Shown here one piece after another: positions 10,357 to 58,754 of a DNA stretch of 64,000 nt (its first letter is position 1; each line of letters starts with the position of its first letter). The notes beneath the pieces are model-generated. The model saw only the letters and a program-made list of their open reading frames with translations, was not told where the DNA came from and made no database searches. The translations under genes and the position numbers were made by a program. Location: NCBI GenBank assembly GCA_023014365.1, contig JAEBUN010000002.1, positions 372,001 to 436,000 of the forward strand, in the 5' to 3' direction. This DNA comes from Lepiota brunneoincarnata. Lineage: Eukaryota > Basidiomycota > Agaricomycetes > Agaricales > Agaricaceae.

Positions 10357-10364
10357 GTAGAACC

Positions 10365-10948: not shown

Positions 10949-10956
10949 GTAGAACC

Positions 10957-12584: not shown

Positions 12585-12776
12585 TGTAAATTGGTGGAAC
12601 AAACGCCGTAGTTAGATATTATAGCAGGCATTCCGATTAGACGATCCCTTGCACCCCGGGGACTGATCGTGTGCCAAAGGCCCCTCTTGTATTCCACTTC
12701 ATGCCAAAGATCACGAGATCAGTTAGTGTCTCGTCAGGCACATATTTTCTTCATCATAGCACACATGTATTGCCGG

Positions 12777-21036: not shown

Positions 21037-22321
21037 TGATACGCCGATTTCACGCCTATACATGAATTCCGTACTCCGGAACGATTCTCTACATAGAATC
21101 ATTGGCTATATCATTAAAGAACTCTATAGAGGATTGGTACTATGTCCCGTAGTAGCCAGTTCGACCGAATTGAGGATATTCGAGCCTTGGAAGTGTTCAA
21201 ACCAGTTCATTATCACTAAGCTTAGTGAACCAAACTGTCGGAACACTTTCCAGAGGGATTCAGGACTCTACATAGTCTATCGAGTATACTCCGGTCGCAT
21301 CAAGGGACCTTACAAGCAGTTTTCTGATGAACCCGGATGCGTTTGAATATAAAGAATGTACCTAGCGGCTGTCGCAGGAGTATTACGTCGAAAGCGAGCC
21401 CAATAATGATGACCGGACCACGGAACGGAATGTTCAACGTTCGGGAGGCGACACCCGATGCCCAAAACCCTAGAAATATCAAAGACTCCTAATTAACGAG
21501 TGCTTTGTGGGTCCCGGCACCTCAGCCTATTGCTTAACTGAGATTAATTACAACGGATCAAGGGACTGTCCATCCGCTATACATTCCGATCATAATTGAT
21601 CCGGAGTCTTAACGCGCTCGCGTGGACGCAGAATAATGCAGACGAGCACGAAACACGTCTGGCTGGATTGCCATTCGTTAATCAGAGAAAAACCCATAAC
21701 CCAGGGCAAGGTAGAAATGCTGCCGAACCTTCCAAAATGTTCTACAGTGCCTGTAACAATTAAGCTTATTGTTTTCTATTTCATATTTACTATCTCTCGT
21801 ATGTATCTAAACAATATAAATACGGTCGCACTTGTTCGTGGAGAAGCAAGAGGTCTCACCCCCGCTTCCACACGCAAGTCTGCGAGCCGTGATCAAGAAC
21901 GGTTTCAGAGGGCTATTTAGTGTGCGTCGTTAAGTGTGAATTCTTTGGTCGTCGACCAACCCAGAGACAGAGACAGAGACCAGAGTTCAGAGTTTAGAGT
22001 TCCAGAGTGCTAGAAACAGAGACAGAGACAGAGACCAGAGACCAGAGACTAGAGACCCCGCGCTTTGAATTGACAGGGATTGTCCTTTCATTGTTGCACC
22101 GTACGGCTAAGATAACTTCAACGGCTGTTCGTTAACCTCTAAAACACTACTCTCTTGAATTTCGCTGTCAGAACGCACCCCCAGAACACCCTAAAAGACG
22201 AAACTGTTCCTTATCTATCTCATTCCACTTGTATTAGCTTAAGCTTATCGAATTTCGGCTAAGCTTAGTGAAAACAAGCCCACTATCCATATTAAAACAT
22301 ACGAACGTTTCTACCTTTTCA
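21037..22321 (+). repeat. E2 5' LTR
   Basis: 1285 bp, TGATACGCC...ACCTTTTCA. A TATAAATA at 21815-21822 is a likely promoter element. 21960-22058 is a GAGACA/CAGAGACC low-complexity tract. It contains four TAAGCTTA sites, including the 14-bp palindrome CACTAAGCTTAGTG at 21214-21227. A solo copy of this LTR lies at 52610-53894. Confidence 0.95.
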
Positions 22322-22323
22322 TC

Positions 22324-22342
22324 TGGAGCCCACCGCGAGGGG
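22324..22342 (+). promoter_or_regulatory. E2 primer binding site
   Basis: TGGAGCCCACCGCGAGGGG starts two bases after the 5' LTR, the normal place for tRNA priming of minus-strand DNA. The identical 19 bases occur at the same place in E1 (52354-52372, minus strand). I could not assign the tRNA. Confidence 0.75.
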
Positions 22343-22625
22343 GGTTTTCAGTTGAATTTCACGAGACAAACACCAAAAGACTTGGACACTGGCCCGCCTT
22401 TCACCTGCGAAGCAGAAAAAGGTTCAAGCAAAGACCGTAAAGTCACCCAAAACGTCCTTCGAGAGCAGTCTCAGGAAGGTCGACCCACCAAAACAGAGAA
22501 CTACTCGGAACTCCAATCGTCCAGAAGGTTCTGAAGGCCTCATCGCCGCTAGTACCTCTCGAAAGCAAAAAGATCCCGTTAGCGCTTTAGCTGCGAACAC
22601 AGCGAGTGGTTCAGCAGTTGCAGTA

Positions 22626-24368
22626 TTGAGAGAAGCCGTACCGCCGATCTCTACTGCTCCCAGAATTACTATAAGGCTTCCAGCCTCAGCTCGCAACATA
22701 GCGCATATTCTGCACACCGAAAACCAGGACGGTCAGACCGTTCCTACGCTAAGCTTAGCGTTACCAAACCAAAACTCGTTTCATACGAACCCTTTTGGTG
22801 CCCCCATGGTACCACAGATATCACAGTCGACTCCGACTGTACAGACAAACCAAACTACGCCGTCGACGACGACTACAGCTAGCAAAATGGGACACGAGCG
22901 TATGCCAATTCCCTTTAGCAATAATGCTCCCAGGTGGGATGCATCAAAACCACAGACATTGAGAAATTATCTCTGGATGCTGGAACGTCTCTTCACGATA
23001 ACGAAGACGACGGACGAGGCAGAAAGAATAAATTGGGCGGTGTCATATGTGGACCAGGATATCCGTGAAGAGTGGATGAGTTTTGCGGAGTTCTTAGCAG
23101 GAAGCTGGACAGGCTTCGTAGAGAGATTAAAGAAAGAGTATCCCGAGGCTGTGGCAGCCGAGCAGGGCTCAGTGCGACGCTTGAGGGAACTCTGTGCAGA
23201 GAGTAGAGGCATTGCGATGAATGAGGAGCATAAAGTCTTGGACTTTAAAAGGCGATTCATTCTCGAAGCAGAGAAGTGTCTAAAGTCGCCGGCGGTAGTC
23301 TCGAACCGAGAGCTAGTCGAGTTATTTACGAGCGCACTGGACTCGGTGTTCCAGGATGTGCTCAATGCGAGATTAGCGATCACCAGGGCGCGTAGAACCG
23401 CAAGTGATGGGTCGGCACTGACTGCAAAGGATTTACGCGAAGAGGACCCCTATGATTGGAGGATTGTCGTGGATAAAGCTGTCGAAATTTCGATTGGCAA
23501 AACACTTATGCGATCCCTTCATCAGGATTTGAGGCCGGTAAACTCGGCATCGATGAGCCATCCACCTGCGACGTCCAGAACAGGGACTTATGACCCAGTG
23601 GTAAAGCGAGAACTGCAAAGCTTAAAGCAGAAATTTCAGGATGAAGTCTCGCAGATGGCAGGTGGCCTCGCTGAGCTTAAGGACCTCATGAATATCCAGG
23701 GGCATACCTTAAAAACATATTTAGAGAGCTCGGCGAAAGACGGACATAATCATGCCAGTTATAATCACGCCCAGAGGAATACCGGAAGTGGGCCGGCAGG
23801 GTCGCTTTCCGATCGCAAGTGCTTCTACTGCTGGTTATTAGGGCATAGTTGGTTATTCTGCCCGGACATGGAGGCGGATAAACAAGCCGGCCGAATTAGA
23901 GTCGAAGGGAACAAAATATATATGGGAGACGGCTCGAGTATCCCTCGAGGAGAAGGGCCTATTAAAGAGAAAGTGGCAAAGTACTATGTGACAAAGGGAC
24001 AACTCTTCGTTCAGATACCAGAACTGCCGGAGGTTGAGCCTGAGTTACTGCAAGTACCAACGTCAGCAGTGTTTGCACAGAGAGCGTTCCCGAGGTCAGA
24101 AAACCAAAGGTCGCCAGCGGAAGAAGAAATCCGCCGTCTGAAGCAGCGCATGGAAATGTTGGAGACAGCTGCCATCCACGCTGGGAGTACCCCAAAGGTT
24201 AAGCTTATGACAAGAAAGGATGATAACGTCGAGATACAGTCTTTGGCCAAGCAATTGGCCCAGATACAGGCTAAGCTTAGTGGTCTGACGGATGGTACGC
24301 CCTCGGCAAGCCAGTATTTGGACACCAGGAGTGGCGCGAAGACTTGGAACTCGGAGTCGGGTTTCTAA
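22626..24368 (+). CDS. E2 Gag
   Basis: Structural capsid/nucleocapsid protein of the retroelement. The frame is open upstream of 22626, to at least 22500, without an ATG. The first in-frame ATGs are at 22806 and 22887 (MGHERMPIPFSNNAPRWD), where the conserved Gag-like sequence begins. A CX2CX4HX4C zinc knuckle (CFYCWLLGHSWLFC) lies near 23820-23870. A helical segment, EEEIRRLKQRMEMLE, precedes the C-terminus. It ends at the TAA 24366-24368, overlapping the protease frame by about 90 nt. Confidence 0.85.
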   Translation: MREAVPPISTAPRITIRLPASARNIAHILHTENQDGQTVPTLSLALPNQNSFHTNPFGAPMVPQISQSTPTVQTNQTTPSTTTTASKMGHERMPIPFSNNAPRWDASKPQTLRNYLWMLERLFTITKTTDEAERINWAVSYVDQDIREEWMSFAEFLAGSWTGFVERLKKEYPEAVAAEQGSVRRLRELCAESRGIAMNEEHKVLDFKRRFILEAEKCLKSPAVVSNRELVELFTSALDSVFQDVLNARLAITRARRTASDGSALTAKDLREEDPYDWRIVVDKAVEISIGKTLMRSLHQDLRPVNSASMSHPPATSRTGTYDPVVKRELQSLKQKFQDEVSQMAGGLAELKDLMNIQGHTLKTYLESSAKDGHNHASYNHAQRNTGSGPAGSLSDRKCFYCWLLGHSWLFCPDMEADKQAGRIRVEGNKIYMGDGSSIPRGEGPIKEKVAKYYVTKGQLFVQIPELPEVEPELLQVPTSAVFAQRAFPRSENQRSPAEEEIRRLKQRMEMLETAAIHAGSTPKVKLMTRKDDNVEIQSLAKQLAQIQAKLSGLTDGTPSASQYLDTRSGAKTWNSESGF

Positions 24369-25477
24369 AGGGTTCGAGGAAGGAGCCGGCTCTGAAGAAG
24401 AAGGTCGCCTTCGCCAGAGGACAGACTCCTGAGGATGCGTCGGATTCCGAGCGATCAGAAGAATCAGAAAATGAGGAAATAGGGCAGACAACGGAGGAAC
24501 CAGTGCGTGCTGCAGCAGGGGAATTACCATATAGAAATGTGAAACCACTGCGCCCGGTTGTTGAGGTGCCACCGTTGCCTGTCAGAAGGATGGAACCATC
24601 TAAGAAGGAGCCTGCGTATAAGCACCAGGCCCCTATAGAGAGGAGTGTCGATGTGGAGGAAGTACTCAGCAGGGTATTGAAGCGAGAAGCCTCAGTATCG
24701 CATGGAGAACTCTTGGCATTGTCACCGATATACAGGAACGCTTATAGGGAGCGCATTATGAGAAAACGGGTACCCACGAGTCAAAGCTTAATAGCAGGAG
24801 TAGGGCCCTGGGACGATGATACAGAAGATATAGAGATTAATAGTGGGCCAGTACAAGTCATGATAACGGAGCTAGCAGACGGCACTCGGAAGTATGATAC
24901 AGTGCTCCGAGAAGGCTCGGCAACCCAAGCCTGGGTAGCGCAGGATCCAATCATGCAGTACTTGGAGTCACTTCCTCGAAGAGACAGGGGACGGCAAGTG
25001 TTTATTGCGAAAGAATGCGAGCCGTTGAGAGTAGTGCCAACTCTGATAAATGGGATTCGGCAGGAAGAGGCCTTGCTAGATAGCGGGTCACAGATCGTCT
25101 CCATGAGTCAGGAAGCGGCGATTGCATGTCAAGTTTCTTGGGATCCAGATACTACGATAAATTTGCAGAGTGCAAATGGGCAGGTTGAAAAGACTTGTGG
25201 ACTGGCAAAGAACGTAGGCTTTACCTGCGGGGGAGTCACAATCTATTTGCAAGTTCACATCGTTCGTAACCCTGCGTATCGAGTACTCTTGGGACGACCC
25301 TTTGATGTAATGACGGCTAGCGAAGTCAGGAATAGCGCCAGTGGCGAGCAAACCTTGGTTATTACGGACCCAAATACCAGAGAACGGGCTGTGTTACCAA
25401 CTTATGCTCGAGGAGAGTGTAATCCTCCTAAGCTTAGGGAAAACAGTCAAAATTTTCAAGAAACCTCGATGAGTTGA
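24279..25477 (+). CDS. E2 protease (retropepsin) reading frame
   Basis: Opens after a TAG in the -1 frame relative to gag and has no convincing initiator, so frameshift expression is likely. The retropepsin active site is EALLDSGSQIVSM near 25070-25110, and the second conserved block is RVLLGRPFD near 25280. The domain is expected to cut the Gag-Pol precursor. It ends with TGA at 25475-25477, overlapping the RT frame by 40 nt. Confidence 0.8.
24359..24365 (+). promoter_or_regulatory. Candidate -1 frameshift site, gag/protease (E2)
   Basis: GGGTTTC read in gag phase as G GGT TTC, an X-XXY-YYZ heptamer directly before the gag TAA. Slipping back one base leads into the protease frame. The Z base is C, which is weaker than A or T. 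Confidence 0.55.
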
Positions 25478-28400
25478 CTGAGGGACAAGGAGAGGTGGCT
25501 TGTATAATAGACTATGATGATGAGAAGGGCCCTGTCATCGCACAAACACTAAGCTTAGCAAAAGGAAGCTTCTCAGAGGCCGAGCTACAGCTAATGTTCA
25601 TTGACCGAGTCATACGCAATGAGGACTGCCCACAGGAAGATAGAGCAACGGCGTTATCGTGCCTAGGGCGCATCGCCAACGCACAGGATATGGAGGGTCA
25701 GGGAATGACTGTCTTCGAAACTGAAGGGGATGACGAAGATATTGTACAATGCCTGGCTGGGAAGAAATATAAACCAGTCGCTTTAAAAGTGAGGCCAGTG
25801 TTAGGTGATTTACCGGAGAAATTCAGGATAAAACGAGAAATAAAAGGGGATCCGCTGGCAGAAATGCCTAAGCTTAGCATGCATCCTCCAGAGTTTGTCC
25901 CGACAGGCAGATATACGGAGGAGCGCAAGCTTAAGCTGGATGAAGCCCATGCAGGGGATTTCTTGTGGCCAGAAGAAAGAAAGCTGATGCACCAAGTCAT
26001 GATGCTTCAAGAAAGGGCATTCGCATGGACAGATGAGGAGAGGGGATGTTTTAGGGAAGACTTCTTCCTGCCGATCGAGATACCGACGGTAGAACATACT
26101 CCGTGGGTGGAGAAGCCCATTCCGATTCCACCAGCGATCTATGATGAAGTCTGTGCCATTATAAAGAGAAAGATTAGTGCTGGTGTATACGAGCCGTCGA
26201 ACTCATCCTATAGATCCCGATGGTTCTGTGTGGTGAAGAAAGATGGGAAAAGTTTGAGACTGGTACACAGCTTGGAGCCGCTGAACAGAGTGACGATAGC
26301 GCATTCAGGACTGCCGCCAGCAACGGAAGATTTGGCGATGCACTTCGCAGGCAGAGCTTGCGGAGGCATTCTGGATCTATATGTTGGCTATGACGAGTGA
26401 CTGTTAGCTGAGTCGTCTCGGGACTTAACAACGTTCCAGACGCCTTTTGGAGCGCTACGCTTAGTGACATTACCCATGGGATGGACCAACTCAGTGCCTA
26501 TATTCCATGAGGATGTAACAGCGATCCTAGCCAGTGAGATACCAGAATACACGATGCCGTACATAGATGATGTACCTATCAGAGGGCCGAAAACTAGATA
26601 TGAGTTGCCAGATGGCACGGAAGAGACGTTGAAAGAGAACCCAGGGATCCGAAGATTTGTATGGGAACACATGCAGACCGTCAATAGGATTCTACAGAGG
26701 ATGAAATACGTAGGAGGGACCTTCTCTGGGCCCAAGACGACTATCTGCGCTGATGAAATCACCGTGGTGGGTTTTGAATGCTCATATAAAGGACGGTTGC
26801 CTGCTACAGACACCATTGGGAAGATATTAAGATGGGGGGATTGCGAGAATGTCTCCGAGCTAAGGGGTTTTCTAGGAACAGCTACGCGCTGCAGGAATCA
26901 TATCCCAAAGTTCATAGCCATAGCGGCACCTCTGTACGAAAAGCTTAAAAAAGGGCAAGAGTTTGAGTGGGGAGAAAACGAACGGAAAGCGCAGCAGGAG
27001 CTGAAGGATGCGATTCAGCGCTGTTTCCCGACCAGGAACCCCGAATTTCCGAGTAAACAACCCATAGTAGTAGCCATGGATACCTCATGGAGGGCGGTGG
27101 GATACTACATATATCAGAGAGATGGAGAAGACGCTAAGCTTATACATTATGTGAAGTTTGGGTCAATATTATTGGATGAAAGACAGCAGAGATACTCTCA
27201 GCCCAAGCGAGAGCTATGCGGCTTAAGAATGGTGCTGGAACAAGAGAAATATTTACTGTGGGGATCAAGAAACTTAGTGGTGGAGACGGATGCGAAGTTT
27301 CTCTTTGGGATGTTAAACAACCCAGGGAAGCTCCCGAACGCCACAGTAAACCGCTGGGTGGACTTCATTAGGTCGTTCCACTTCACGCTAGTACACAAAG
27401 AAGGGAAGAACTTTGGACCGGACGGACTGTCCAGGCGACGCTACTATCCCGGTGATGAGACAGCCCGTCGCTTCGATGATGGATCCAAGGATGAAGGAGA
27501 GGAGTTCGAACTGATCAAAGAAGATCCAGGGGCCGCAGATCCTTTACCCTTGGAAGCCTTCTGTGATGAGATCGACAGTCGCTCTGGCTTCAACCAGGGT
27601 CTGGCGCGTGATGTGTATGATTTTGAGTATGAGCTGGATCAAGCCCGGGAAGAGTACTTGGATGAACAACAGGCTAAGCTTAGGGTTATAGAAGACCCAG
27701 CCTGTCCAGAAAACCATCGACAAGTACTAAGCTTAATGACGGATGTCAGGCTAGTGCCAGGTTTCGAAGAGGAAAAGTCGGCCGAGATAGAGGAAACATA
27801 TGATGAGTCGCGCAGGACAGATACAGCGCGAATACAAGATGAAAAGATACCCAAAGTCAGGGAATACCTGAAAACAGGGGGCAGTAGCGCAGCTGAAGGC
27901 TTGGATGAGCCAGATCTGCGTAAGCTTAAGCATATGGTAGAGCATTTCTTCTTGGATAAAGAGGGGAGGCTGTATAGGACGAGTCCTAGCGGTCAGCATC
28001 AGCTAGTAGTGGATAAGGAGCAACGTATGTATATGTTGCGAGCCAGCCATGACTTCCTAGGACACAGAGGAATATACGCAACCACTAAGCTTATAACGCA
28101 GAGGTTCTGGTGGCCGGAAGTTGAAGGAGACGTAGCTTGGTATGTGCAATCGTGCCATCTATGCCAGCAACGGCAAAAGGTGATCATCGAGACGCCGCCA
28201 ATAGTAACGCCCACGCCGTCGATATTCCAAGTGCTACATGTGGACACACTACATATGACGCCAAGTTCTAATGGGTGTAGTTATATTGTGCATGGAAGGT
28301 GTGGACTGTCATCTTGGATGGAGGCAAAAGCGTTGAGAAAAGAGAACGCCAGTTCGATCGCGCAGTGGTTATTCGAAGATATCATTTGCCGATGGGGCTG

Positions 28401-29223
28401 TATAGTGAAGATTGTCACGGACAACGGTTCTCCATTTAAGAAAGCTGTTCGATGGCTGGAAGAAAAATATGGGATAAAGGGAGTAACGATATCTCCTTAC
28501 AATTCCAAAGCGAACGGGATTATTGAGCGACCCCACTGGGATGTGCGACAAATGTTGTACAAAGCTACAGATGGAGACGTCAAAAAGTGGTATTGGCACC
28601 TACCGCACGTTATGTGGGCAGATCGGATCACCATTAGAAAAGGAATGGGGTGTTCCCCGTACTTTTTGGTAACCAGAGCGCACCCGACGCTACCTTTGGA
28701 TGTCAAAGAGGCCACTTGGCTGGTGCAGCTACCGAATAAGTACTTGACCACGGCCGAGTTGATAGGATATCGAGCTCAGGCTTTGGCAAAACATGTTCGG
28801 CATGTTGAGGAGATGCGTCAGCGTGTTTCAGACACTAAGCTTAGCAAGGCTTGGGAAATGGAACGGCAAGCAGCGCATAAGATAAAAGACTATCGCTTCG
28901 GCGCGGGAGATTTAGTATTAGTGAGAAATACGGCTATAGAGAGCTCAGCAGACAGGAAGATGAAACCCAGGTATCTAGGACCCATGGTGGTCATATCTAG
29001 ATCAAAGGGAGGATCTTATATCCTGGCAGAGTTGGACGGTTCGGTATGGCAGAATAAAGTGGCGGCGTTCAGAGTAATTCCCTACTTAGCCAGGAAACAT
29101 ATACCGTTGCCGCCGGAATTACAAGAGTTGATAGATCTGTCGCCAGAGGGACTGAAGACCCTGGAGGAGACTACTGAGGATGAGCCTAGTGACAGATGGG
29201 AGCCGGAAGAGTTGGAAGGATAG
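25438..29223 (+). CDS. E2 reverse transcriptase-RNase H-integrase (one in-frame TGA)
   Basis: The polymerase polyprotein copies element RNA and integrates the DNA. RT blocks: [39 protein letters not shown], and PYIDDVPI as the YxDD motif. RNase H starts near 27060 ([21 protein letters not shown]). Integrase has the HHCC finger (HDFLGHRG...CHLCQQ) and core residues in IVTDNGSPF and [13 protein letters not shown], then the [10 protein letters not shown] and [13 protein letters not shown]-terminal fold. There is no chromodomain. A TGA at 26398-26400 interrupts RT just before [12 protein letters not shown], probably a CGA to TGA change. It is otherwise intact. Confidence 0.85.
25450..25456 (+). 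promoter_or_regulatory. Candidate -1 frameshift site, protease/RT (E2)
   Basis: AAATTTT read as A AAT TTT lies inside the 40-nt overlap (25438-25477) of the protease and RT frames. It is in the correct phase and fits the canonical slippery rule. Confidence 0.65.
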
Positions 29224-29301
29224 AAAAAAAACCTGATATTGTGGACAGAACTATCTACTTATCGACGGAAAACTATCCTAGGGACTGTAAAAGCGTTAAG
29301 C

Positions 29302-35300: not shown

Positions 35301-38300
35301 CTAAACGCCCATTTGCCCAGATCTCATGGGATCTTATCACCGGTCTACCACCTAGCGCCGGCCATAATGCGATATTGTCCGTGGTGGACCACGGCCTTAC
35401 GAAGGGGGTAATTTTCATCCCAACCTCAGATCGATCAAACGCCGATGACATCGGACGACTATTAATAGAAAAAGTCTTCACCAGATTCGGACTACCCGAC
35501 AAAATCATATCTGATCGAGACCCCAGATTTGCCGCCAACTCCCTCCGACAACTAGCCAAACGCCTTAACATCCAACAAGCATTCTCAACCGCATACCATC
35601 CCCAGACAGATGGTTCCACAGAACGATACAATCAAGAAATTGAGACTTATCTCGCCATATATTGCACCAGAAATCCCCTTGACTGGTCAGAAACCCTCCC
35701 TATCGCCGAGTTCGCACATAACTCCAAAATACATGCCTCGAGGCAAAAATCCCCATTTGAACTAATCATGGGATACAACCCCCCACCGATACCCACGGTA
35801 ATGGAAACATCGAACTTTCCATCAGTAGACGAACGCATCAGACTCCTTGATGATGCCAGAAAAGAAGCACACACGGCACATCAACTCTCCGCCGACATTA
35901 TGAAACAAAGAACCAGAAGAACTGTCAAACCCCTTGAAACACGTCAAAAAGTATGGCTAGAAGCCAAGAACCTCAAACTTCCTTTCATCTCCAACAAAAT
36001 ATCCCCAAAACGACTAGGACCCTTCCTTATCACAGAAGTCCTATCACCACTCACCTACAAACTAAAACTTCCGATCAAATGGAAGATACATCCAATATTC
36101 CACAGAAATCTTCTAACCCCATATACCGAAACAGAAGCATACGGATCTCATCCGACTCCACCACCACCAGACATCATCAATGAAGAAGAAGAATACGAAA
36201 TAGAAGCCATTCTAAACCACCGACAACATCGTGGAAAACTACAATACTACGTCAAATGGAAAGGATACTCCCACATGGAGAATGAATGGATCACCGACGA
36301 AACGCTTTACGAAAACGCCAAAGAATACTTGTACGAGTATAAAGAAGCTCATGGAATTCTCCAGAAAGAACAGGAACCCACCAGAACCAGCCAAAGACCA
36401 CTTCGCTCCCACAACAAACATACTTAAAGATGCCCATGAACCTCGACCTCACTCGCCCCCAAACTACTCCCCCCTTCTCAACAACACCTTCACCAACCTC
36501 CTCATCATCCTCCGTCGTTATCATAAACAATGCAAGCGTCGAACATACAACACTTCAGACAACTCCCGTTCCGGCCCCATCTCCCTACACCCCCTCTCAC
36601 ACCTTCGCCGCAACATACGCCTCCCCTAGGGACGAGACCCCCGACCCCAATGACACCCCAGAACCAACAGCCGCCCCAGCTGCCTCCCTTAGATACCATA
36701 CAGCTGGAGTACGATCATATGGACCAGATCACCCTTCTGACGGAGATCTGCGCGAGGCTGCCACCGACGGAGCCTTTACGATTAAATTGGAACACACTCC
36801 AATTTCAGAATACGACCGACAACTCTGGTACGACTATACCCACCACGTACGACAGACTAAGGCTCTCGCTACTGTGTACAATACGCAACGTGCCTGGGCA
36901 GAATCACTCGAGCGACTTCTCCGCTCAAGATCGGGCCTCATGTCCGAGGTGTCGAAGAACCTACCCAAACGAAATGAGGTACATACCTCGCAGCCCCCCA
37001 CCACAACCATCCCCACCACTACCACAACGACCACTGCCGCTATCATCACCACCGCCCCCAGCAAGGGAAGAAAGCCCACCAGTATCAGAAATCCCTTCAG
37101 ACTTCTCACCCCCACCAAGGACACCACCCACACCGTCACCAGTAACAACGTCCCGATTCGGAACTCCCCCAATCCCGTTCACCAGCGAACCAACCCCCGA
37201 ACCACCGACAGATCAGTCTGTATCCAATGCAGACACACAGGACACTGGGCCATGGATTGCCCCCAATTTGCTTGCCTTGGATGTAAGCAATACGCCCCAG
37301 GGCACTACTCATACGACTGCATCAAATACAGATGCCCCCACTGCGCCGTTTTTCAACCACGCCATAAACGGACCGAATGCCCAAGTCGAAAGACTCGACA
37401 CGCCCCCTACTCCAGAAATCCTACAACCCGTCCCTCGACCACTCCCACAACTCATCATCGATACATCGACCTCACCCACAACGACTACTATGAGGAATGC
37501 TACGACGACGTGGCCGAATCCAACATCACAGGAGAACCATGTGGTTCCTTCTGAAACAAACCAACTCACCCCACCAGAAGAAAGAATCGAAAGTCCCCAT
37601 TTCAGACGCCTTCTTTACGATATCTTTTACCCAGGACAACCCCCATCCCCAGAAACCGCCGCTGCACTCGATCTTCACAGAACTCCCACTCCTACCTTCT
37701 CCCCCGTTATTCCCCCCAGACCAGACTCCACCGACCTACCTCAGATCGATTACTACGAACCAAACTACTTAGCCGAATATCCGGAAGAAGGAAACTAACG
37801 AGTTGTATGGAAAACAACTCTAGAAACGGACCTAATGTTATCAGAAACCACATCAGAAGGACAGTTAAATTTAGCTCATATTCCCATGTCACTATGAAAC
37901 TATCAGTAGTGTACATCAGAAGGACTATTCTTAAATATGCGCCTCATGTTTTCTTATCTCTGACTTGTAGTTACCCCGGTCTGGACTATTATAGTAGGAG
38001 TACAGCCACACTTAGAGATATATAAGGATACAGTACATACCTTGTATCCTTATCTTAGTGTTATACAGTTCTTGCCTCCTATACCTCTTTGCCTTTAAAC
38101 CGGCTGGACTATAGTGCTCCGTCGTCTCTAAGTCACGCCTAGTAGGACAAGACCAAGTCTGTATAGACATCTTGCCACGAACGCCGTGCTACTCAAGAGC
38201 GAACCCCTAACCCGGGTAACACTATTCATACTCTCCGCAGGCTCGGTATCGGTGTCTACCACAACAGCAGCAGAGATAGGGGCCTTGCGACCCTTGCGAG

Positions 38301-38832
38301 GCTAAGCTTATGCATGAGAAGACGATTTGAAGCCAAAAGAACGCTAAGCTTACGCGTTTGGGGACAGCAGAGCCTTCGGCAACGTTGGAGGAAGTAGAGC
38401 CAGTCGTGGACGACGGGTTCTGAGCCTCTTCGGTACGGGTTTTGTGGGATTCTTCAGAGCGGACGCGATTAATGCGGCTACAGCATTCAGAGAGCGCCTT
38501 ATAGATCGCGGGCATCTCATAAGACGAATGGTAGTTGTTTTGGTAAATTTCGTAGAGCTTGCGAATACGGAAGACGTAGTCTTGGTTGACATGAAGCTTG
38601 ATAGCTTCATTATCCTCCGATAACGCTTCAATATAAGCAGACTAGAAATGATTGAGGAACAGCGAGAGAAGCATGAAAAGAATAGACATACCCCAGGGGC
38701 GTCGAATGCGAGGAGAGCCTTCTCGACGAGGGGACGAGCGACTTGACCGTTTTGCAGGCGCTGAAGATGACCTTTGGTGTTGCTGATGAGATCGTCGAGC
38801 TCGACTTGAAGGTTGGGGATTGAAGAAGCCAT
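29302..38832 (-). CDS. E2 antisense gene 2: six-exon, 359-residue protein of unknown function (E3 in intron 3)
   Basis: Exons on the minus strand: 38832-38692, 38641-38354, 38301-38232, 29995-29853, 29799-29607 and 29546-29302. All phases agree, giving one 359-codon frame from MASSIPNLQVELDD to DLDKPLPT. Donors are GTATGT, GTAAGC, GTATGA, GTGCGC and GTGGGC; acceptors are all YAG. Intron 3 was 53 nt with a TGCTGAC branch before E3 inserted into it. Visible features: a Ser/Thr/Glu-rich middle, basic patches (RPRKGRK, YRKRR, KRARTK), a CQVP...HCCYVR cysteine cluster and a C-terminal helical run (LKRFQFLIQERIRLKSLL). I do not recognise the family. Introns can persist because they lie antisense to the genomic RNA. 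Confidence 0.75.
30044..30429 (+). repeat. E3 5' LTR
   Basis: 386 bp. TATATAA at 30227-30233 is a TATA box. About 30 bases downstream is TATCTTAGTGTT (30259-30270), the likely start of the transcript. ACATCAGAAGGAC occurs twice within the LTR. Confidence 0.95.
30375..30788 (+). CDS. E3 leader ORF: small hydrophobic protein or Gag N-terminal extension
   Basis: A frame open from 30375 in the LTR to TAG 30786-30788, in phase with gag. It has no ATG; TTG 30459 is a possible start. The last 60-odd residues contain two membrane-like segments (LAYLLIFVFTSTATLIAY and IIATQFFILLAII) around a CPCHCC cluster. Compared with E4, about 17 of 20 codon differences that I counted from 30544 onward are synonymous, suggesting selection on the protein. 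How it is initiated is unclear. Confidence 0.5.
   Translation, partial: TSCHERRATQERTPNPGNKTLRYSAAYLLLALYSALLYRRTERVEVPWSFKTTYERKPPLCVAIATSLNLSPPDDLAYLLIFVFTSTATLIAYRIITLELERITCPCHCCVVRSWNLYSGISIIATQFFILLAIIDC
30431..30442 (+). promoter_or_regulatory. E3 self-primer binding site
   Basis: AACACTAAGATA, one base after the LTR, is the exact complement of TATCTTAGTGTT at 30259-30270, where transcription probably begins. There is no TGG-starting tRNA site. This is the arrangement used by Tf1-type elements, where the 5' end of the RNA folds back as primer. E4 keeps the same pairing. Confidence 0.75.
30789..32591 (+). CDS. E3 Gag
   Basis: Capsid/nucleocapsid protein. The frame opens right after the TAG of the leader ORF. 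The first in-frame ATG is 31401, but the Pro-rich region before it (TQTPSPFYPPSPF, SDVYITD) is conserved in E4, so the true start may lie upstream or be non-ATG. The core has LKPIAFDGTRRLFEDWIF and a retrotransposon-gag helix region. The zinc knuckle CFRCGAKDHWVSKC (CX2CX4HX4C) lies near 32270-32310. It ends TAA 32589-32591 and overlaps pol by about 20 nt. Confidence 0.85.
   Translation, partial: TNITTPPKKFSARESPSPPPPKSRTRISGSGTKNPDPRRNPISTQTPSPFYPPSPFDSPTPSTSTRTRTSFADKLAERQRLQHEKELQEHYEREEERRKQAEEYRAKVDPLNDYKLQRLKNALKQPRGLSASEENLLTRHEYAVNQGKPQEDNDSDVYITDDNQSNPDPQPPALPAPTIPLALPAPPLRPTQPPSPLPPGQLPIMAAAATPKELGLLKPIAFDGTRRLFEDWIFQCEVYVLANATTYNTDLARTLFVLSTMQSGDARAWARQYLHERNAQTPPGQTIVMESWDNFTARLRADFTPADEHAYAHTRLQTLHQAGKPMTEFNAQFKELVRQSGLNEDRTLIDLYRKAIDRRIAMKIDESENPPTTITAWYTRANKLDDNFRRINALYGTPRNTFPQRNQYQPNRGPSRPNNNVPYAQFYQRSNAPRFTPRDPHAMEVDHVTIEEGFEDPYPEIPQPEYTKENSAQEPLELDAVVTGQQMKAYQNQECFRCGAKDHWVSKCPQPPPARRFPGMRTNPPRPARNPNRPFPGQQNTRPGFPNRNAQQSPQRKYSLAVAEVASQMRQMVDDLDPELQQELHSALAEDPEMCPFQDF
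32570..36427 (+). CDS. E3 Pol: protease-RT-RNase H-integrase-chromodomain
   Basis: An uninterrupted polyprotein of about 1285 residues in the -1 frame relative to gag, with no ATG. The probable slip is at T TTT TAA (32585-32591). Domains in order: retropepsin (ALIDSGAQGNFIS), RT with IYMDDILIY, RNase H (EIEADASKFASGAVL), integrase zinc finger (HPGEQETYR...CPECQQHK), integrase core (ISDRDPRFAAN, GSTERYNQEIE), and a C-terminal chromodomain (EEYEIEAILNHR...YYVKWKGYS...NEWITDETL). The chromodomain would steer integration to modified chromatin. Length and motifs are those of a complete chromovirus. Confidence 0.95.
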   Translation: MSIPGFLKRNAVDRCAPARSRTQKDISYSHSQKDIFSINSVQLRLSPNKRSLFLPIEIWSERTSKPVAITALIDSGAQGNFISHKVVERHGYQTKRLDQPIPLSNVDGTDNQHGKIHEYIKIRTIIDGRDCTLEAYVTNTGEKDLIIGFPWLEQYNPDINWKTKTFSWKPQIDHQDFSKLLRTLRRPVELNSIAMDIMAGKTSQPEENPEEYVNLSNVDLDTFSLEREMNPMLLTPLEVNAKATHATTLHNEQHNPTRSANQKGKQPESNKEPPEIPRRFARWAKIFNKKASERFPPSRTFDHEIELKPTFEAKSMKPYQVAPAEEKALKEFIDENLRKGYIRPSKSPMASPFFFVAKKGGDLRPCQDYRYLNDHTVKNAYPIPMISSIMDKLKGAKYFTKLDVRLGYNNVRIKDGDQWKAAFKTPMGLFEPTVMFFGLCNSPATFQHMMDTLFSEIMEKGGIIIYMDDILIYGKTQEETDRLTEKVLQILQENDLYLKTEKCKFNKQRLEYLGMIITPDEIKMDPGKLKGIEDWPVPKTVRHVRKFIGFCNFYRKFIRSYSHHTKPLNQLLSKSNKFEWKEEQQKAFETLKNEFLKEPVLLMPDSTKPFEIEADASKFASGAVLYQYDINGIRKPVSFYSKTFGPAERNYDIYDRELLAIIRALEEWRHYLLGSPHTVRIRTDHQNLTYWRKPQKINRRQARWVQTLADYNFKLEHVPGSKIPAPDALSRRPDHIPDEDNDNEDVTILPKNLFVTTADIEDQNLITILPEHLFIATVDMKLQERITESPKYDARTTEAFKLLKEAHPNAADKDFGTVPTPNGSLLTFQERVIIPEDLQLRRDVIARYHDHPTRGHPGEQETYRLAKKEVYWPGMSTFIKNYVKGCPECQQHKIIRRPDRAPTQPIPPPSSKRPFAQISWDLITGLPPSAGHNAILSVVDHGLTKGVIFIPTSDRSNADDIGRLLIEKVFTRFGLPDKIISDRDPRFAANSLRQLAKRLNIQQAFSTAYHPQTDGSTERYNQEIETYLAIYCTRNPLDWSETLPIAEFAHNSKIHASRQKSPFELIMGYNPPPIPTVMETSNFPSVDERIRLLDDARKEAHTAHQLSADIMKQRTRRTVKPLETRQKVWLEAKNLKLPFISNKISPKRLGPFLITEVLSPLTYKLKLPIKWKIHPIFHRNLLTPYTETEAYGSHPTPPPPDIINEEEEYEIEAILNHRQHRGKLQYYVKWKGYSHMENEWITDETLYENAKEYLYEYKEAHGILQKEQEPTRTSQRPLRSHNKHT
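36430..37554 (+). CDS. E3 accessory ORF a (zinc-knuckle protein, overlapping ORF b)
   Basis: 374 codons from ATG 36430, two bases after the pol stop. The N-terminus is Thr/Pro/Ser-rich. The C-terminal third has three zinc knuckles: CIQCRHTGHWAMDC, CLGCKQYAPGHYSYDC and CPHCAVFQPRHKRTEC. This suggests a second nucleic-acid-binding protein. E4 keeps this frame except for stops at former CGA codons. It overlaps ORF b for 1025 nt. Confidence 0.65.
   Translation: MPMNLDLTRPQTTPPFSTTPSPTSSSSSVVIINNASVEHTTLQTTPVPAPSPYTPSHTFAATYASPRDETPDPNDTPEPTAAPAASLRYHTAGVRSYGPDHPSDGDLREAATDGAFTIKLEHTPISEYDRQLWYDYTHHVRQTKALATVYNTQRAWAESLERLLRSRSGLMSEVSKNLPKRNEVHTSQPPTTTIPTTTTTTTAAIITTAPSKGRKPTSIRNPFRLLTPTKDTTHTVTSNNVPIRNSPNPVHQRTNPRTTDRSVCIQCRHTGHWAMDCPQFACLGCKQYAPGHYSYDCIKYRCPHCAVFQPRHKRTECPSRKTRHAPYSRNPTTRPSTTPTTHHRYIDLTHNDYYEECYDDVAESNITGEPCGSF
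36530..37798 (+). CDS. E3 accessory ORF b (Pro-rich protein, overlapping ORF a)
   Basis: 422 codons from ATG 36530 in the +1 frame relative to ORF a, ending just before the 3' LTR. It is very Pro/Thr/Ser-rich, with a non-repetitive C-terminal block (EERIESPHFRRLLYDIFYPG, DYYEPNYLAEYPEEGN) that E4 also conserves. That block lies mostly beyond ORF a and is the best evidence that this frame is translated. Function unknown. Confidence 0.6.
   Translation: MQASNIQHFRQLPFRPHLPTPPLTPSPQHTPPLGTRPPTPMTPQNQQPPQLPPLDTIQLEYDHMDQITLLTEICARLPPTEPLRLNWNTLQFQNTTDNSGTTIPTTYDRLRLSLLCTIRNVPGQNHSSDFSAQDRASCPRCRRTYPNEMRYIPRSPPPQPSPPLPQRPLPLSSPPPPAREESPPVSEIPSDFSPPPRTPPTPSPVTTSRFGTPPIPFTSEPTPEPPTDQSVSNADTQDTGPWIAPNLLALDVSNTPQGTTHTTASNTDAPTAPFFNHAINGPNAQVERLDTPPTPEILQPVPRPLPQLIIDTSTSPTTTTMRNATTTWPNPTSQENHVVPSETNQLTPPEERIESPHFRRLLYDIFYPGQPPSPETAAALDLHRTPTPTFSPVIPPRPDSTDLPQIDYYEPNYLAEYPEEGN
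37836..38221 (+). repeat. E3 3' LTR
   Basis: 386 bp and identical to the 5' LTR by direct comparison, so insertion is recent. Confidence 0.95.
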
Positions 38833-39453
38833 TTTCTTACGAAGAGTGTCTGCTAGAATGAGACGTCGCTCCCTCGCTTTTATAAGAAAAGGCTGTCGGC
38901 AGTGATGACAAATCATGACGAGTGGATAAAGAGCACCCTCCACCCTAAGCTTATGACCTGAGAGGCCTAGGAAACCTGTAATCTTGAGTAGCCAGCCTTC
39001 GACAGACTAGCTGAACCACAGTTGCCTTATTGGGTAACAGGTCGCCAGGGTCTCGCGGTTATCAGTGTGCACAGGGATTCGGATGGAACGGTGAGGGCAC
39101 CGATTTCAATTTGGCTAGGGGGAGACGGGCCCCAAGTGGCACAAATGGCGCGTCAAACCCCGTGTACAGGCTGGTTCGGGTTCGGGCTTGTAAATGAAGC
39201 CGGAACGGATGACCGGTTCACTACACATGGCAAATCGTGGCACACTGAGATGTCAATAAACATAGCAGAAGTATCAGAGAAATATCTGATGAGCGTATAA
39301 GCGGCTGGAAGCCTTAGCTTAGCTTGGGATATTCCAGAAGGGCCTTAAGCTTAACTCAGAAAGATACCAAGAGACAAGAATAGTTAAGCGAAATGTAACT
39401 ATATACAGGACAAGAGGATATATTACATTCAAGAGAGGAAAGGGAAGCAGGCA

Positions 39454-41492
39454 CTAGTTCAAGTCCTCCAAGACAGACTCCGGATCCTGAGTTATCGGGA
39501 AAGCGAGGAAGAGGAGCGATTTGAGCTCCTCGAATTCTTCGTATGTCGGGACCCCCGGAAAGTTGTCAGCAAACTCGAAGAACGCCTGGACGTCTTCGAG
39601 GGACTCGGCCATACCCATCTCCACAAACGCCACGTCGTTACCGTCCAAGGCCGTCCTGGTAGCTTGCATCTCCTGGACGAACTGGTAGATTACACGGCGG
39701 TGGTGGAAGGCTGATGCCTCGTAGGCAACACGATTGGCCTCCAGACTGACCAAGCTGGAGGACGCAACACATGCGAAGGCAGCAAGATCTGGGAAATAAA
39801 AAGTGAATAAATGGGAAAAACAGTGAACAGAGAAACTTACGGTATTCACTGGTCAGTGAGGACGTGACCAGGGCGTTCGCAACGCCAGCCGAGACTCGCG
39901 GATGGTCTGCGAAGGTACAGGGGTAGTTGTACAGGTCGCAGCTGCGACACTTCTTACCCTTGCCCAGAGGCTCGCACTCCAACTTACGAGCGGCGCAAGT
40001 AGTGCACCGAGACCGAGGCGGCACGTACTAGGGAAGGGGCAAAACAGTTAATAAGGAAACACGAGAAAAACTTGGAGAACGTACCGAAAGCTGGCTAGCT
40101 GCCAGCAGCCTAGAAAAGTCCTCACAAAAGAGCGGGACTGGGTGCCGGTATCCATGATCCCGGATTATTTCGGCTTCAGAACGTCGGATGCGCGCCCGGG
40201 GAGTATATTTCTTCGGGCGCGTGTTAGAGCTTTTCTTCGGTAGGGTTACGCGCGCGCGACGCGACCCTGAAGGTCCGGCTTGGGGAGGCAAGGACTGGGA
40301 TGTGTCTGGGACCACCGGGCTTGGCAAACGAGAGGGGACGGGGGTTGGAGAAGCTAAGAATGAGTCTTGAAAAACGAACGCCGGCTCCTGGGGAACAGGC
40401 AAAGGCTCCAAGAGGAGCTCCAAATCTGGAGAAGGCGAAGCCTCCGCGGGACTTGGGAGAGACTTGACTGAAGCAGAAGCCAAGTGAGGAAGCGAGGGCG
40501 TAGGACACCTGGGAGAGGCCAATGCGTTCCGCTCGACCAGGGTAGAGGACCAGTTAAAAATTTTGAAGAGGTCTTCTTGGGAGACCTCTGGGACCGGAGA
40601 ATGTGATGGCGAATTTGAACTCGCCAGGAACAGAGGCGACGGGGGCGGCGCAGATGACTGTGCACGTTGCTTGCCTTTGAGAGCGGCAGGGATACAAGCT
40701 ATGAGGCACACTATTAGCAGGAGCGGAGAAATAAGCAGAAAAAGGCTTAAGCTTACGCGTAGAAGTAGCCGAAGAGGCTACAGGAGAGGAGGGGCGGTTT
40801 GTTGAAGGGCCCGGCACCTCTGAACCTGACGCAATACCCAGGGGAGGGAGCACCAGCGAGCCTTCACCGTCCAGGGTGCGCAGAGAGACGGCGAGAGGGG
40901 GCAGCAACATTGAACTGGACGGAGCCTCTGTGGATAATCCATCAGAGGGCCCGCCGACAGGGATACCTAACAAAAGTTCTGTGGACAATCCGGCAGAACT
41001 CTCGTCAGTTGGATTGCACAGTGACGCGATTGAGATGACGCGTTGCGGCACAGGAGTGGACAGGGGAGTGGCCGGCCGAGGGGTTGGTTCGCGGGGCGGC
41101 GAGTACGGTGGGGGAGGGGTCCTATCCACACCTCCCTGGCGATTTCCGCGAGCTCCTCGTCCCACTTGCCCTCCTCTAGCTCTCCTAACACATGGTGCTG
41201 GTGGTTCCCATTGAGGAAGGAGGTTGCGACGCGCCAGGAGGCGAATAGTGAGACCTAAGGACAAAGAAAGCATGAGGAAAACAACGAGAGCGAGAGAAAA
41301 GAGACTTACGTTGCGCAATCGACAAAGAGGGCGCGTCCTGAGAGGCCAGAGGGGCAGTGCTAGGCCCAGCGTAGTCTGAGGACAGTGTGAGGAAAAACAA
41401 AGATGATTGTAACACAAACTCTACTCACCAGAGGAGGAGTCCGTGTCTACTTCGTATTGGGCACGTTTGCTGCTGCGCGTGTTTCTGTCCAT
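39454..41492 (-). CDS. E2 antisense gene 1: Zn(2)-Cys(6) cluster protein, six exons
   Basis: Exons on the minus strand: 41492-41429, 41375-41310, 41254-40757, 40698-40085, 40027-39841 and 39788-39454. Phases agree and give about 587 codons from MDRNTRSSKRAQYEVDTDSS to VLEDLN. Donors are GTGAGT, GTAAGT, GTAAGC, GTACGT and GTAAGT. Exon 5 encodes CTTCAARKLEC then C..C......C, spacing CX2CX6CX8CX2CX6C. This is the fungal Zn(2)-Cys(6) DNA-binding signature. Upstream is a long Pro/Ser-rich region ending KKYTPRARIRRSEAEIIRDHG. The C-terminal exon is acidic and helical. Exon 3 is uncertain: another frame (GELEEGKWDEELAEIAREV) also looks coding. Predicted nuclear DNA-binding protein encoded by the transposon. 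Confidence 0.75.
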
Positions 41493-41805
41493 TGTTGATA
41501 GAAGTGGGCGTTAAGGAGTGATCTGCGAGCAGGATAAAACGAATAAAGAGTGAGAGGGAGAACGAAAGAGAGGAAACGAGACCTTGGGACATTTAAAAGA
41601 CCCAATAAAGAGATAAAAATTTAAGCTATAGCAACAAGAAGTTGATCTATACATTTAAACTCGGTGACATGACATCATTTGGAATAAGCTTAGCGAAAGT
41701 GCGCTACCCTCGAAGCTGGTGAACGTTCTAGACCATAGAGCGCGTCAGAGAGACTCAGATACTGCGAATTTGAAGGAGATAATGACTGAGGACAGTCAGC
41801 AATTG

Positions 41806-41817
41806 GTTAGGGGGAGA
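41806..41817 (+). promoter_or_regulatory. E2 polypurine tract
   Basis: The purine-rich run AGGGGGAGA lies directly before the 3' LTR, as expected for plus-strand priming. Confidence 0.6.
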
Positions 41818-43102
41818 TGATACGCCGATTTCACGCCTATACATGAATTCCGTACTCCGGAACGATTCTCTACATAGAATCATTGGCTATATCATTAAAG
41901 AACTCTATAGAGGATTGGTACTATGTCCCGTAGTAGCCAGTTCGACCGAATTGAGGATATTCGAGCCTTGGAAGTGTTCAAACCAGTTCATTATCACTAA
42001 GCTTAGTGAACCAAACTGTCGGAACACTTTCCAGAGGGATTCAGGACTCTACATAGTCTATCGAGTATACTCCGGTCGCATCAAGGGACCTTACGAGCAG
42101 TTTTCTGATGAACCCGGATGCGTTTGAATATAAAGAATGTACCTAGCGGCTGTCGCAGGAGTATTACGTCGAAAGCAAGCCCAATAATGATGACCGGACC
42201 ATGGAACGGAACGTTCAACGTTCGGGAGGCGACACCCGATGCCCAAAACCCTAGAAATATCAAAGACTCCTAATTAACGAGTGCTTTGTGGGTCCCGGCA
42301 CCTCGGCCTATTGCTTAACTGAGATTAATTACAACGGATCAAGGGACTGTCCATCCGCTATACATTCCGATCATAATTGATCCGGAGTCTTAACGCGCTC
42401 GCGTGGACGCAGAATAATGCAGACGAGCACGAAACACGTCTGGCTGGATTGCCATTCGTTAATCAGAGAAAAACCCATAACCCAGGGCAAGGTAGAAATG
42501 CTGCCGAACCTTCCAAAATGTTCTACAGTGCCTGTAACAATTAAGCTTATTGTTTTCTATTTCATATTTACTATCTCTCGTATGTATCTAAACAATATAA
42601 ATACGGTCGCACTTGTTCGTGGAGAAGCAAGAGGTCTCACCCCCGCTTCCACATGCAAGTCTGCGAGCCGTGATCAAGAACGGTTTCAGAGGGCTATTTA
42701 GTGTGCGTCGTTAAGTGTGAATTCTTCGGTCGTCGACCAACCCAGAGACAGAGACAGAGACCAGAGTTCAGAGTTTAGAGTTCCAGAGTGCTAGAAACAG
42801 AGACAGAGACAGAGACCAGAGACCAGAGACTAGAGACCCCACGCTTTGAATTGACAGGGATTGTCCTTTCATTGTTGCACCGTACGGCTAAGATAACTTC
42901 AACGGCTGTTCGTTAACCTCTAAAACACTACTCTCTTGAATTTCGCTGTCAGAACGCACCCCCAGAACACCCTAAAAGACGAAACTGTTCCTTATCTATC
43001 TCATTCCACTTGTATTAGCTTAAGCTTATCGAATTTCGGCTAAGCTTAGTGAAAACAAGCCCACTATCCATATTAAAACATACGAACGTTTCTACCTTTT
43101 CA
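41818..43102 (+). repeat. E2 3' LTR
   Basis: 1285 bp. It differs from the 5' LTR at eight positions, every one a C/T or G/A change at a CpG. Confidence 0.95.
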
Positions 43103-43447: not shown

Positions 43448-43832
43448 TGTTACCTGGGTTAGGGGTTCGCTCTTGAGTAGCACGGCATTTGTGGCAAGAT
43501 GTCTATACAGACTTGGTCTTGTCCTACTAGGCGTGACTTGGAGACGACAGAGCACTATAGTCCAGCCAGTTTTAAGGGCAAAGAGATATAGGAGGCAAGA
43601 ACTGTATAACACTAAGATAAGGATACAAGGTATTGTACTGTATCCTTATATACTTCTAAGTGTGGCTATACTCCTACTATAATAGTCCGGACCAAGGTAA
43701 CTATGAGTCAGAGATAAGAGACATGAGGCATATGGTAAGAATCGTCCTTCTGATGTACACTACTGATAGTTTCATAGTGACATGGGAAATGTAGCTAAAA
43801 ATAACTGTCCTTCTGATGGAATTCTGATAACA
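43448..43832 (-). repeat. E4 3' LTR
   Basis: 385 bp, TGTTACCTGGG...CTGATAACA on the + strand. It differs from the other E4 LTR at about eight sites, nearly all CpG when compared with E3. Confidence 0.9.
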
Positions 43833-43869
43833 TTAGGTCCGTTTCTAGAGTTGTTTTCCATACAACTTG

Positions 43870-45238
43870 TTAATTTCCTTCTTCCGGGTACTCGGCTAAG
43901 TAGTTTGGTTTGTAATATTCGATCTGAGTTTGGTTGGTGGAGTCTGGTCTAGGGGGAATGACTGGAGAGAAGGTGGGAGTGGGAGTTCTGTGGAGATCGA
44001 GTATAATGGCGGTTTCTGGGGATAGGGGTTGTCCTGGGTAGAAGATGTCATATAGTAGGCATCTGAAGTGGGGACTCTCTATTCTTTCTTCTGGTGGGGT
44101 GGTTGGGTTTTCTTCAGAAGGAACCGCAGGGTTCTCCTGTAATATTTGATTTGGCCATGTCGTCGTAGCATTCCTCGTAGTAGTTGTCGTGAGTGAGGTC
44201 GATGTATCTATGATGAGTTGTGGGAGTGGTCGAGGGACAGGTTGTTGAATTTCTGGAGTAGGGGGCGTGTTGAGTCTTTCAACTTGGGCATTCGGTCCGT
44301 TTATGGTGCGGTTGGAAGACAGCGCAATGGGGGCATCTATACTTGATGCAGTCGTATGAGTAATGCCCTGGGGCATATTGCTTGCATCTGAGGCAAGCAA
44401 ATTGGGGGCAATCCATAGCCCAGTGTCCTGTGTGTCTGCATTGGATACAGACTGATCTGTCAGTGGTTCGGGGGTTGGTTTGTGAGTGAACGGGATTGGG
44501 GGAGTTCCGAACTGGGACGTTGTTACTGGCGACAGTGTGGGTGGCATCCTTGGTGGGGGTGAGAAGTCTGAAGGGATTTCTGATACTGGTGGGCTTTCTT
44601 CCCTTGTTGGGGACAGTGGTGATGATTGCGGCAGTGGTCGTCATGGTAGTGGTGGGGACGGTTGTGGTGGGGGGCTGCGAGGTATGTATCTCATCTCGCT
44701 TGGGTAGGTTCTTCGACACCTCAGACATGAGGCCCGATCTTGAGCGGAGAAGTCGCTCGAGTGATTCTGCCCAGGCACGTTGTGTATTGTACGCAGTAGC
44801 GAGAGCCTTAGTCTGTTGTACGTGGTGGGTATAGTCATACCAGAGTTGTCAGTCGTATTTTGAAATTGAAGTGTGTTCCAATTTAGTCGTAAAGGCTCTG
44901 TCGGTGGCAGCCTTATGCAGATCTCTGTCAGAAGGGTGATCTGGTCCATATGATCGTACTCCAGCTGTATGGTATCTAAGGGAGGTGGCTGGGGCAGCTG
45001 TTGGTTCTGGGGTGTCATTGGGGTCGGGGGTCTCGTCCCTGAGGGAGGTGTATGTTGCGGCGAAGGTGTGAGAGGGGGTGTAGGGAGACGGGGCTGGAAC
45101 GGGAGTTGTCTGAAGTGTAGTATGTTCAATGCTTGCATTGTTTATGATGACGACGGAGGATGATGAGGAGGTTGGTGAAGGTGTTGTTGAAAAAGGGGGA
45201 GTAGTTTGGGGGCGAGCGAGGTCGAGGTTCATGGGCAT
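43870..45238 (-). pseudogene. E4 accessory ORFs a and b (overlapping)
   Basis: Both E3 accessory frames are recognisable. ORF a starts at 45238 and is broken by stops near 44846 and 44279, the latter within former CGA context. ORF b runs from 45138 with one stop near 44641, and its conserved C-terminus (SPHFRCLLYDIFYPGQ) ends at 43870. Zinc knuckles are preserved around 44330-44450. Confidence 0.65.
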
Positions 45239-45240
45239 CT

Positions 45241-57375: not shown

Positions 57376-57379
57376 TTAC

Positions 57380-58750: not shown

Positions 58751-58754
58751 ATAC

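Follow-up and report, generated by a model that had tools for sequence, protein, structure and literature searches.

A Ty3/gypsy-type long terminal repeat (LTR) retrotransposon of the basidiomycete Lepiota brunneoincarnata, here called E2, carries a dispersed array of one 8-letter palindrome, TAAGCTTA, and selection on this DNA word itself, throughout the element, is well supported. E2 lies in a 64-kb stretch of contig JAEBUN010000002.1 (positions 372,001 to 436,000), which is the window referred to below and whose own numbering is used. Selection on the word is the best-supported step of a wider proposal: judged from sequence features, the dispersed TAAGCTTA copies are somewhat more probably than not a binding-site array for the product of E2's own antisense gene A, which would mark copies of the family for activation or anti-silencing.

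Enrichment, exactness and selection of the palindrome

E2 is placed among Ty3/gypsy elements by its LTRs (1285 bp, TG...CA, 5' and 3' copies 99.4% identical), a 4-bp target duplication (ACGG on both sides) and RNase H and integrase domains (PF17917/PF17919/PF17921); the split E2 frames that were scanned gave no Pfam match for the reverse transcriptase domain. An initial annotation made from the letters of this DNA had claimed at least 28 copies of the palindrome across E2, and exactly 28 were found (34 in the whole window), with all 16 of the sites that it listed, and a further one at 15686, at the right positions. The four sites of the 3' LTR duplicate those of the 5' LTR, which leaves 24 independent sites out of the 28. 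In unique E2 sequence (12.6 kb, with one LTR counted and the nested element E3 left out) these 24 sites compare with a mean of 0.19 and a maximum of 3 in 300 Markov-1 simulations, close to the chance expectation of about 0.2 given originally; for the whole window, 100 dinucleotide shuffles gave a mean of 0.54 and at most 4. Moreover, unique E2 sequence holds only nine one-mismatch neighbours of TAAGCTTA against the 24 exact copies, and the word is therefore kept exact. The sites follow one another at a mean gap of 525 bp (maximum 1450 bp, E3 length subtracted) and their flanks show no wider repeat. C is the commonest base before them (16/24) and G after them (10/24), preferences from which the full site may be GCTAAGCTTAGC. 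With no CpG in it, the palindrome would escape damage from methylation or decay of that dinucleotide.

Inside the window only the E2 family carries the array; the exceptions are two single sites. The neighbouring elements E3 and E4 (43448-51581) have zero copies each, as had been stated, and the sites outside E2 are four in an E2-type solo LTR (52610-53894) and singles at 6279 and 15686, which are the only two in the other 32.5 kb of window DNA (outside E2, E3, E4 and the solo LTR). The element E1 was thus correctly credited with its one site (15686), but the E2-type solo LTR placed there was not seen: window self-comparison revealed a single such LTR, at 52610-53894. Genome-wide (55.6 Mb, 95 contigs), TAAGCTTA occurs 5370 times, against 842 for the reversed word.

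Half of the unique sites (12/24) lie in the gag/pol frames, and translation passes through them in two registers, giving xKLx at nine and LSL at three. When synonymous codons were shuffled frame by frame, a mean of 0.10 sites remained (maximum 2 in 2000 trials) versus the 12 observed, and five of the seven KL dipeptides in pol are written as TAAGCTTA. Together, the synonymous shuffle and the two registers rule out protein-level selection for KL or LSL; therefore it is the DNA word that is selected, as the initial annotation had argued, and the dinucleotide, Markov and synonymous shuffles exclude chance or composition as its source. The residues at the pol sites often differ among relatives (for example, L509 is F in 9/10 close relatives); among named relatives, those nearest to E2 pol are proteins of Agaricus bisporus (66-67% identity).

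Antisense genes and persistence of the sites

Two genes lie on the opposite strand between E2 pol and the 3' LTR. Gene A (41492-39454) is predicted to be joined at GT-AG introns into an open frame of 579 amino acids without a stop, and one translated exon has the cysteine spacing C-X2-C-X6-C-X8-C-X2-C-X6-C. The fungal Zn2Cys6 pattern is C-X2-C-X6-C-X5-12-C-X2-C-X6-8-C, which this exon fits. Across five divergent copies (synonymous divergence, dS, of the gene ~0.55-0.60), the ratio of nonsynonymous to synonymous change (dN/dS) was 0.17-0.23 over all exons and 0.04-0.08 in the Zn exon, where constraint on the gene was strongest in each copy; that of pol, for comparison, was 0.06-0.08 in four copies. 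The Zn2Cys6-type antisense gene that had been announced thus looks spliced and open and is under purifying selection; gene A evolves like a constrained protein-coding gene, most strictly so in its presumed DNA-binding part. A Pfam scan of gene A returned only sub-threshold Zn_clus and zf-ChsH2, with no other known domain. The Zn exon has 138 genome matches (fragments included, and five with E above 0.001). A full-length search for homologs of the protein gave none (shorter proteins were not candidates), a second search gave one 99-amino-acid match at 98%, and there was no match in PDB. Gene B starts at 38832 and is interrupted by E3 in the window; the copy at locus L006, which is free of E3, shows the whole gene region. 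Three scanned pieces, covering part of gene B only, had no Pfam match. Against these two predicted spliced antisense genes, antisense open reading frames (ORFs) of at least 150 amino acids number none in E3 and one (168 amino acids) in E4.

Sites are found upstream of three start regions, marked by TATA-like boxes in the LTR and in front of gene B and by the ATG of gene A. Three others coincide with predicted splice positions: gene A intron 3 and a gene B intron both have GTAAGCTTA as their predicted donor, and TAAGCTTAG is the predicted acceptor of that gene B intron, which holds 38303 and 38345.

Persistence of the sites was followed in 30 pol loci and 30 antisense loci fetched from the genome, one of each being the window's own copy. 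Each alignment has 31 rows (the window reference, the window's own locus, L005 or L043, and 29 other copies), many of them near-identical, and represents few independent lineages: two main subfamilies and a few mosaics. Outside the stretch that they span are 22750, 24200, 24272 and, in all loci but one, 41685; for the LTR sites the comparison was limited to five LTRs. Sites 27135, 27728, 27921, 28086, 28836 and 29297 were exact in 31/31 rows, 27675 in 30/31, 25429 in 29/31 and 25550 in 28/31, while 29573 was kept in 30/31 although its flanks differ. A site is exact at 25869 in 16/31 rows and at 25926 in the other 15/31, so that the two subfamilies differ in which of these positions, separated by 57 bp, holds the site; the substitution replaces K by E at 25869 and is synonymous at 25926. 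In the antisense region, 40748 was exact in 31/31 rows, 38946 in 29/31 and 39346 in 19/31, and 38345 was seen in 16 antisense rows only, its position being at the end of those loci. Equivalents of 38303 and 38345 were present in 27/31 pol rows; of the four rows without them, two represent the window's own copy, in which E3 interrupts the region. In the four divergent copies compared, identity over gene A intron 3 falls to 59-62%; its 40748 site is nevertheless intact, though splicing may hold the donor half.

Between subfamilies, 12 of 14 testable sites were kept versus 8.4 expected with local identity as the null (P = 0.014; one divergent copy per region), and in the pol set (11 sites) 0.90 were intact versus 0.65 for CpG-free background words (p ~0.02). 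Genome-wide, the paired LTR sites were exact in 550 of 597 places at no more than two mismatches (reversed control 11), and a control word just downstream in 57 of 513 (reversed control 39).

Relatives of gene A were found at C35 and C60, with 63% and 61% identity in the Zn exon and 98% identity to each other over 1.8 kb of DNA. The 4.5 kb around the C35 copy (two pieces) contained no TAAGCTTA, no AAGCTT, no match to the E2 LTR and no recognisable motif of its own; locus L065 (C35:356700-359000) is a stand-alone relative with open-looking frames. By its sequence, this relative may be a host gene, a domesticated copy or the source of the element gene. In the mosaic copy L040, gene A exons are 95-99% like those of E2 and the flanks are of a different lineage, from which antisense genes may have been exchanged between E2 lineages.

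Table 1. Features of E2 and its surroundings in window numbering; letters such as KL and LSL give the amino acids read through a site.
Feature	Position	Strand	Remarks
E2	21037-43102	+	Ty3/gypsy-type LTR retrotransposon
E2 5' LTR	21037-22321	+	TAAGCTTA at 21217, 21761, 22240, 22260; TATAWA at 21815
TAAGCTTA	21761-21768	.	46 bp upstream of LTR TATA-like box 21815
Paired TAAGCTTA-N12-TAAGCTTA in LTR	22240-22267	.	550 exact places genome-wide
TAAGCTTA	22750-22757	.	gag frame, LSL
Two TAAGCTTA (24200, 24272)	24200-24279	.	end of gag frame, KL and KL
TAAGCTTA	25429-25436	.	second frame, KL
TAAGCTTA	25550-25557	.	third frame, LSL
TAAGCTTA	25869-25876	.	KL; in 16/31 aligned rows, TGAGCTTA in the other 15
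CAAGCTTA in window copy	25926-25933	.	TAAGCTTA in the 15 rows without the 25869 site
pol frame	26401-29220	+	RNase H, integrase zinc-binding domains; six TAAGCTTA: 27135, 27675, 27728, 27921, 28086, 28836
TAAGCTTA	29297-29304	.	contains antisense gene B stop codon
TAAGCTTA	29573-29580	.	3' part of antisense gene B
Antisense gene B, 3' part	29302-30043	-	gene interrupted by E3
E3	30044-38221	+	another Ty3/gypsy element, inserted in gene B; has a chromodomain
Antisense gene B, 5' part	38222-38832	-	ATG 38832; TATA-like box 38884
Two TAAGCTTA (38303, 38345)	38303-38352	.	acceptor and donor ends of one predicted gene B intron
TAAGCTTA	38946-38953	.	~60 bp upstream of gene B TATA-like box
TAAGCTTA	39346-39353	.	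between genes A and B; TTAGCTTA in 11/31 rows
Antisense gene A	39454-41492	-	6 predicted exons, 579 aa (amino acids)
Zn2Cys6-type exon of gene A	39841-40027	-	C-X2-C-X6-C-X8-C-X2-C-X6-C
TAAGCTTA	40748-40755	.	predicted donor of gene A intron 3 (GTAAGCTTA)
TAAGCTTA	41685-41692	.	~190 bp upstream of gene A ATG
E2 3' LTR	41818-43102	+	four sites as in 5' LTR: 41998, 42542, 43021, 43041
E2-type solo LTR	52610-53894	-	four TAAGCTTA as in E2 LTRs; GCGC on both sides

A stop at 26398-26400 splits the window's E2 pol frame, which is open there in many other copies (1261 amino acids); TGA stops occur in many of the 49 scored copies, which would fit CpG decay. The gag/pol frames overlap at 24281-24365 and 25438-25474, and frameshifting or splicing may be needed. 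E3 and E4 are gypsy elements, 91-92% identical and opposite in orientation. The LTRs of E3 are 100% identical and CTATT stands on both sides of it, so its insertion is very recent. The solo LTR sits in a copy (52426-52609, 53895-54010) of the sequence at 15134-15429, which is the empty site. Both sides of the element cluster (1-14713 and 53900-62930) are occupied by a tandem gene family in blocks ~70-90% identical, of tetratricopeptide-repeat type in the two frames scanned.

A proposed self-recognition system and its alternatives

We propose that the E2 family would have accumulated and kept TAAGCTTA through selection on its DNA, until sites at a mean spacing of ~525 bp ran through LTRs, genes, introns and antisense promoters. 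The Zn2Cys6-type product of gene A is the likeliest candidate for the reader, because the gene and the array occur together, the Zn exon is so constrained and a palindrome suits a dimer; the protein would bind the site as such a dimer. With dense sites in E2 copies and few elsewhere, it could find its own family genome-wide. Once bound, it might switch on the LTR promoter and the antisense promoters and hold the element open along its entire length in the face of host silencing, steps that we infer from the parallel with VANC21 of Arabidopsis (see below) and from the sites upstream of the three start regions.

Several results weigh against this proposal. The Zn cluster scored 13.6 and 15.9 bits against Pfam PF00172, under the cut-off of 21, and the single-sequence AlphaFold model of the Zn exon was poor (pLDDT, the predicted local distance difference test, 57), too poor for a fold search. 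Splicing may be part of the reason why the three sites at splice positions persist. At the pol sites, residue conservation was only marginally below average (0.47 versus 0.66, p = 0.08; 0.07 in a second test), and residues unlike the consensus of relatives were not clearly commoner (3/23 versus 9.7% elsewhere). In the antisense set (3 sites), 0.64 were intact versus 0.37 for CpG-free background words (p = 0.17); in three subfamily LTRs, 0/32 motif positions varied versus 89/1099 other non-CpG positions (P = 0.07). A second LTR control word, next to 21761, varied as little as the motif (530 of 628 places exact; reversed control 110), and the LTR counts were for this reason dropped as proof of motif-specific conservation, which is only moderate among the copies at hand.

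The same array could instead be read by a host DNA-binding protein that the element recruits (a host activator, nuclear organiser or replication factor), with gene A acting otherwise. Sites near promoters would serve any activator, single copies of TAAGCTTA also occur outside E2, and the relative of gene A at C35/C60, in surroundings that at C35 are free of the word, is possibly host-encoded. Nevertheless we regard a host reader as unlikely: the array in the window is confined to one family, which has an antisense gene of DNA-binding type, constraint on that gene peaks in the Zn exon, and such a density of sites would presumably pull a host factor to hundreds of parasites. If gene A protein does read the array, it might also do so as a repressor, for copy-number control or the exclusion of related elements; everything said for binding by gene A protein serves this version too, as sequence cannot tell an activator from a repressor. 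It is the less probable of these two alternatives. Against it, the exchange between 25869 and 25926 keeps the number of sites, which is easier to understand if sites help the copy that carries them, and self-repression would be expected to favour escape copies without sites.

A role in RNA, where self-complementary UAAGCUUA would serve genome dimerisation, packaging or splicing, would account for a palindrome and for the three sites at predicted antisense splice positions. Most sites are elsewhere, however, some of them upstream of the three start regions, and two dozen packaging signals over a whole RNA would be unusual, so that this role seems improbable. Least credible of all is an array without function, inherited through composition, codon use or the spread of a short repeat. 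Many copies are indeed near-identical, so that shared sites are not independent, and one LTR control word matches the motif in invariance; but neither the shuffles, synonymous ones included, nor the unrepetitive flanks, nor the scarcity of near-misses next to exact copies agree with it.

Comparison with known systems

Element-encoded proteins that act on their own element's promoter include TnpA of the plant CACTA transposon En/Spm, whose sites are subterminal only. HBZ of human T-cell leukaemia virus type 1 (HTLV-1), a basic leucine zipper (bZIP) cofactor, is likewise antisense, element-encoded and active on the element's own promoter. To our knowledge, neither TnpA nor HBZ has sites written through coding DNA.

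Among fungal Zn2Cys6 regulators, XYR1/XlnR and ACE2 share the six-cysteine spacing of gene A; they are host regulators, whereas gene A is element-encoded and below the Pfam cut-off. The CGG triplet that is usual, if not universal, in Zn2Cys6 sites is absent from TAAGCTTA, an objection that the initial annotation had itself raised. The enriched word is indeed without CGG, but the objection is weak because, in the portion of the literature available, XYR1 recognises GGCTAA, both singly and in double or inverted arrangements with 10-12 bp between the copies, and the target of ACE2 is GGCTAATAA (PMC5468973). The XYR1 site also shares GCTAA with the possible extended E2 site GCTAAGCTTAGC.

In place and orientation, the E2 antisense genes resemble the aORF-3R genes, which several families of LTR retrotransposons (Boty in fungi among them) carry downstream of pol and ahead of the 3' LTR and which are described, in the accessible parts of two reports, as of unknown role (PMC7264820, PMC11963269). 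E2 has the same arrangement, with extra antisense ORFs at this place that most copies retain. According to those parts, some aORF-3R products have a nuclear location or predicted DNA binding, and some of the regions contain tandem repeats, with no cognate dispersed motif described (PMC7264820, PMC11963269). E2 differs from the cases described there in having two predicted spliced antisense genes, one of Zn2Cys6 type, and its matching dispersed motif gives a concrete target for one antisense gene of this kind. Among the matches listed in the open-licence literature, judged by title and start of abstract, there was no such system in a fungal LTR retrotransposon.

VANDALs are Mutator-type DNA transposons, and E2 differs from them as an LTR retrotransposon with 1285-bp LTRs and gag/pol. 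What E2 has in common with them is a short motif dense in its own family and rare elsewhere. In the Arabidopsis VANC/VANDAL system, as given in the sections available of two papers, VANC21 recognises YAGTATTAY and VANC6 recognises AGTTGTCC/AGTTGTAC (PMC5735166, PMC10398659); as in E2, a CpG-free short family motif at high density goes with an element-encoded extra protein, and sites are gained and lost between subfamilies (PMC5735166, PMC10398659). For VANC21, motif density was suggested to matter for localisation (PMC5735166, in the part available). The parallel with VANDAL anti-silencing proteins drawn in the initial annotation thus stands in principle and fails in detail: VANC motifs, as far as those sections describe them, are non-palindromic, in one orientation and in tandem repeats that are mainly non-coding, whereas E2 sites are palindromic, single and dispersed, 12/24 of them in gag/pol. 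Furthermore, VANC proteins carry DUF1985/DUF287, which the Pfam scan did not find in gene A, whose type is Zn2Cys6 instead.

By analogy, then, E2 would work like VANC/VANDAL but is not a member. If the proposal is true, coding DNA has been bent to carry protein-binding sites, sequence-specific anti-silencing encoded by the element is no longer limited to plant DNA transposons but includes fungal retrotransposons, and selected fungal loci might be derepressed with a site-directed tool. We tentatively suggest, as a possibility somewhat short of even, that a fungal LTR retrotransposon independently evolved VANC-like self-recognition and anti-silencing, in which an antisense Zn2Cys6 protein is paired with a CpG-free palindrome that recurs about every 500 bp, across coding frames, splice sites and a stop codon too, and so tags every copy of its family.

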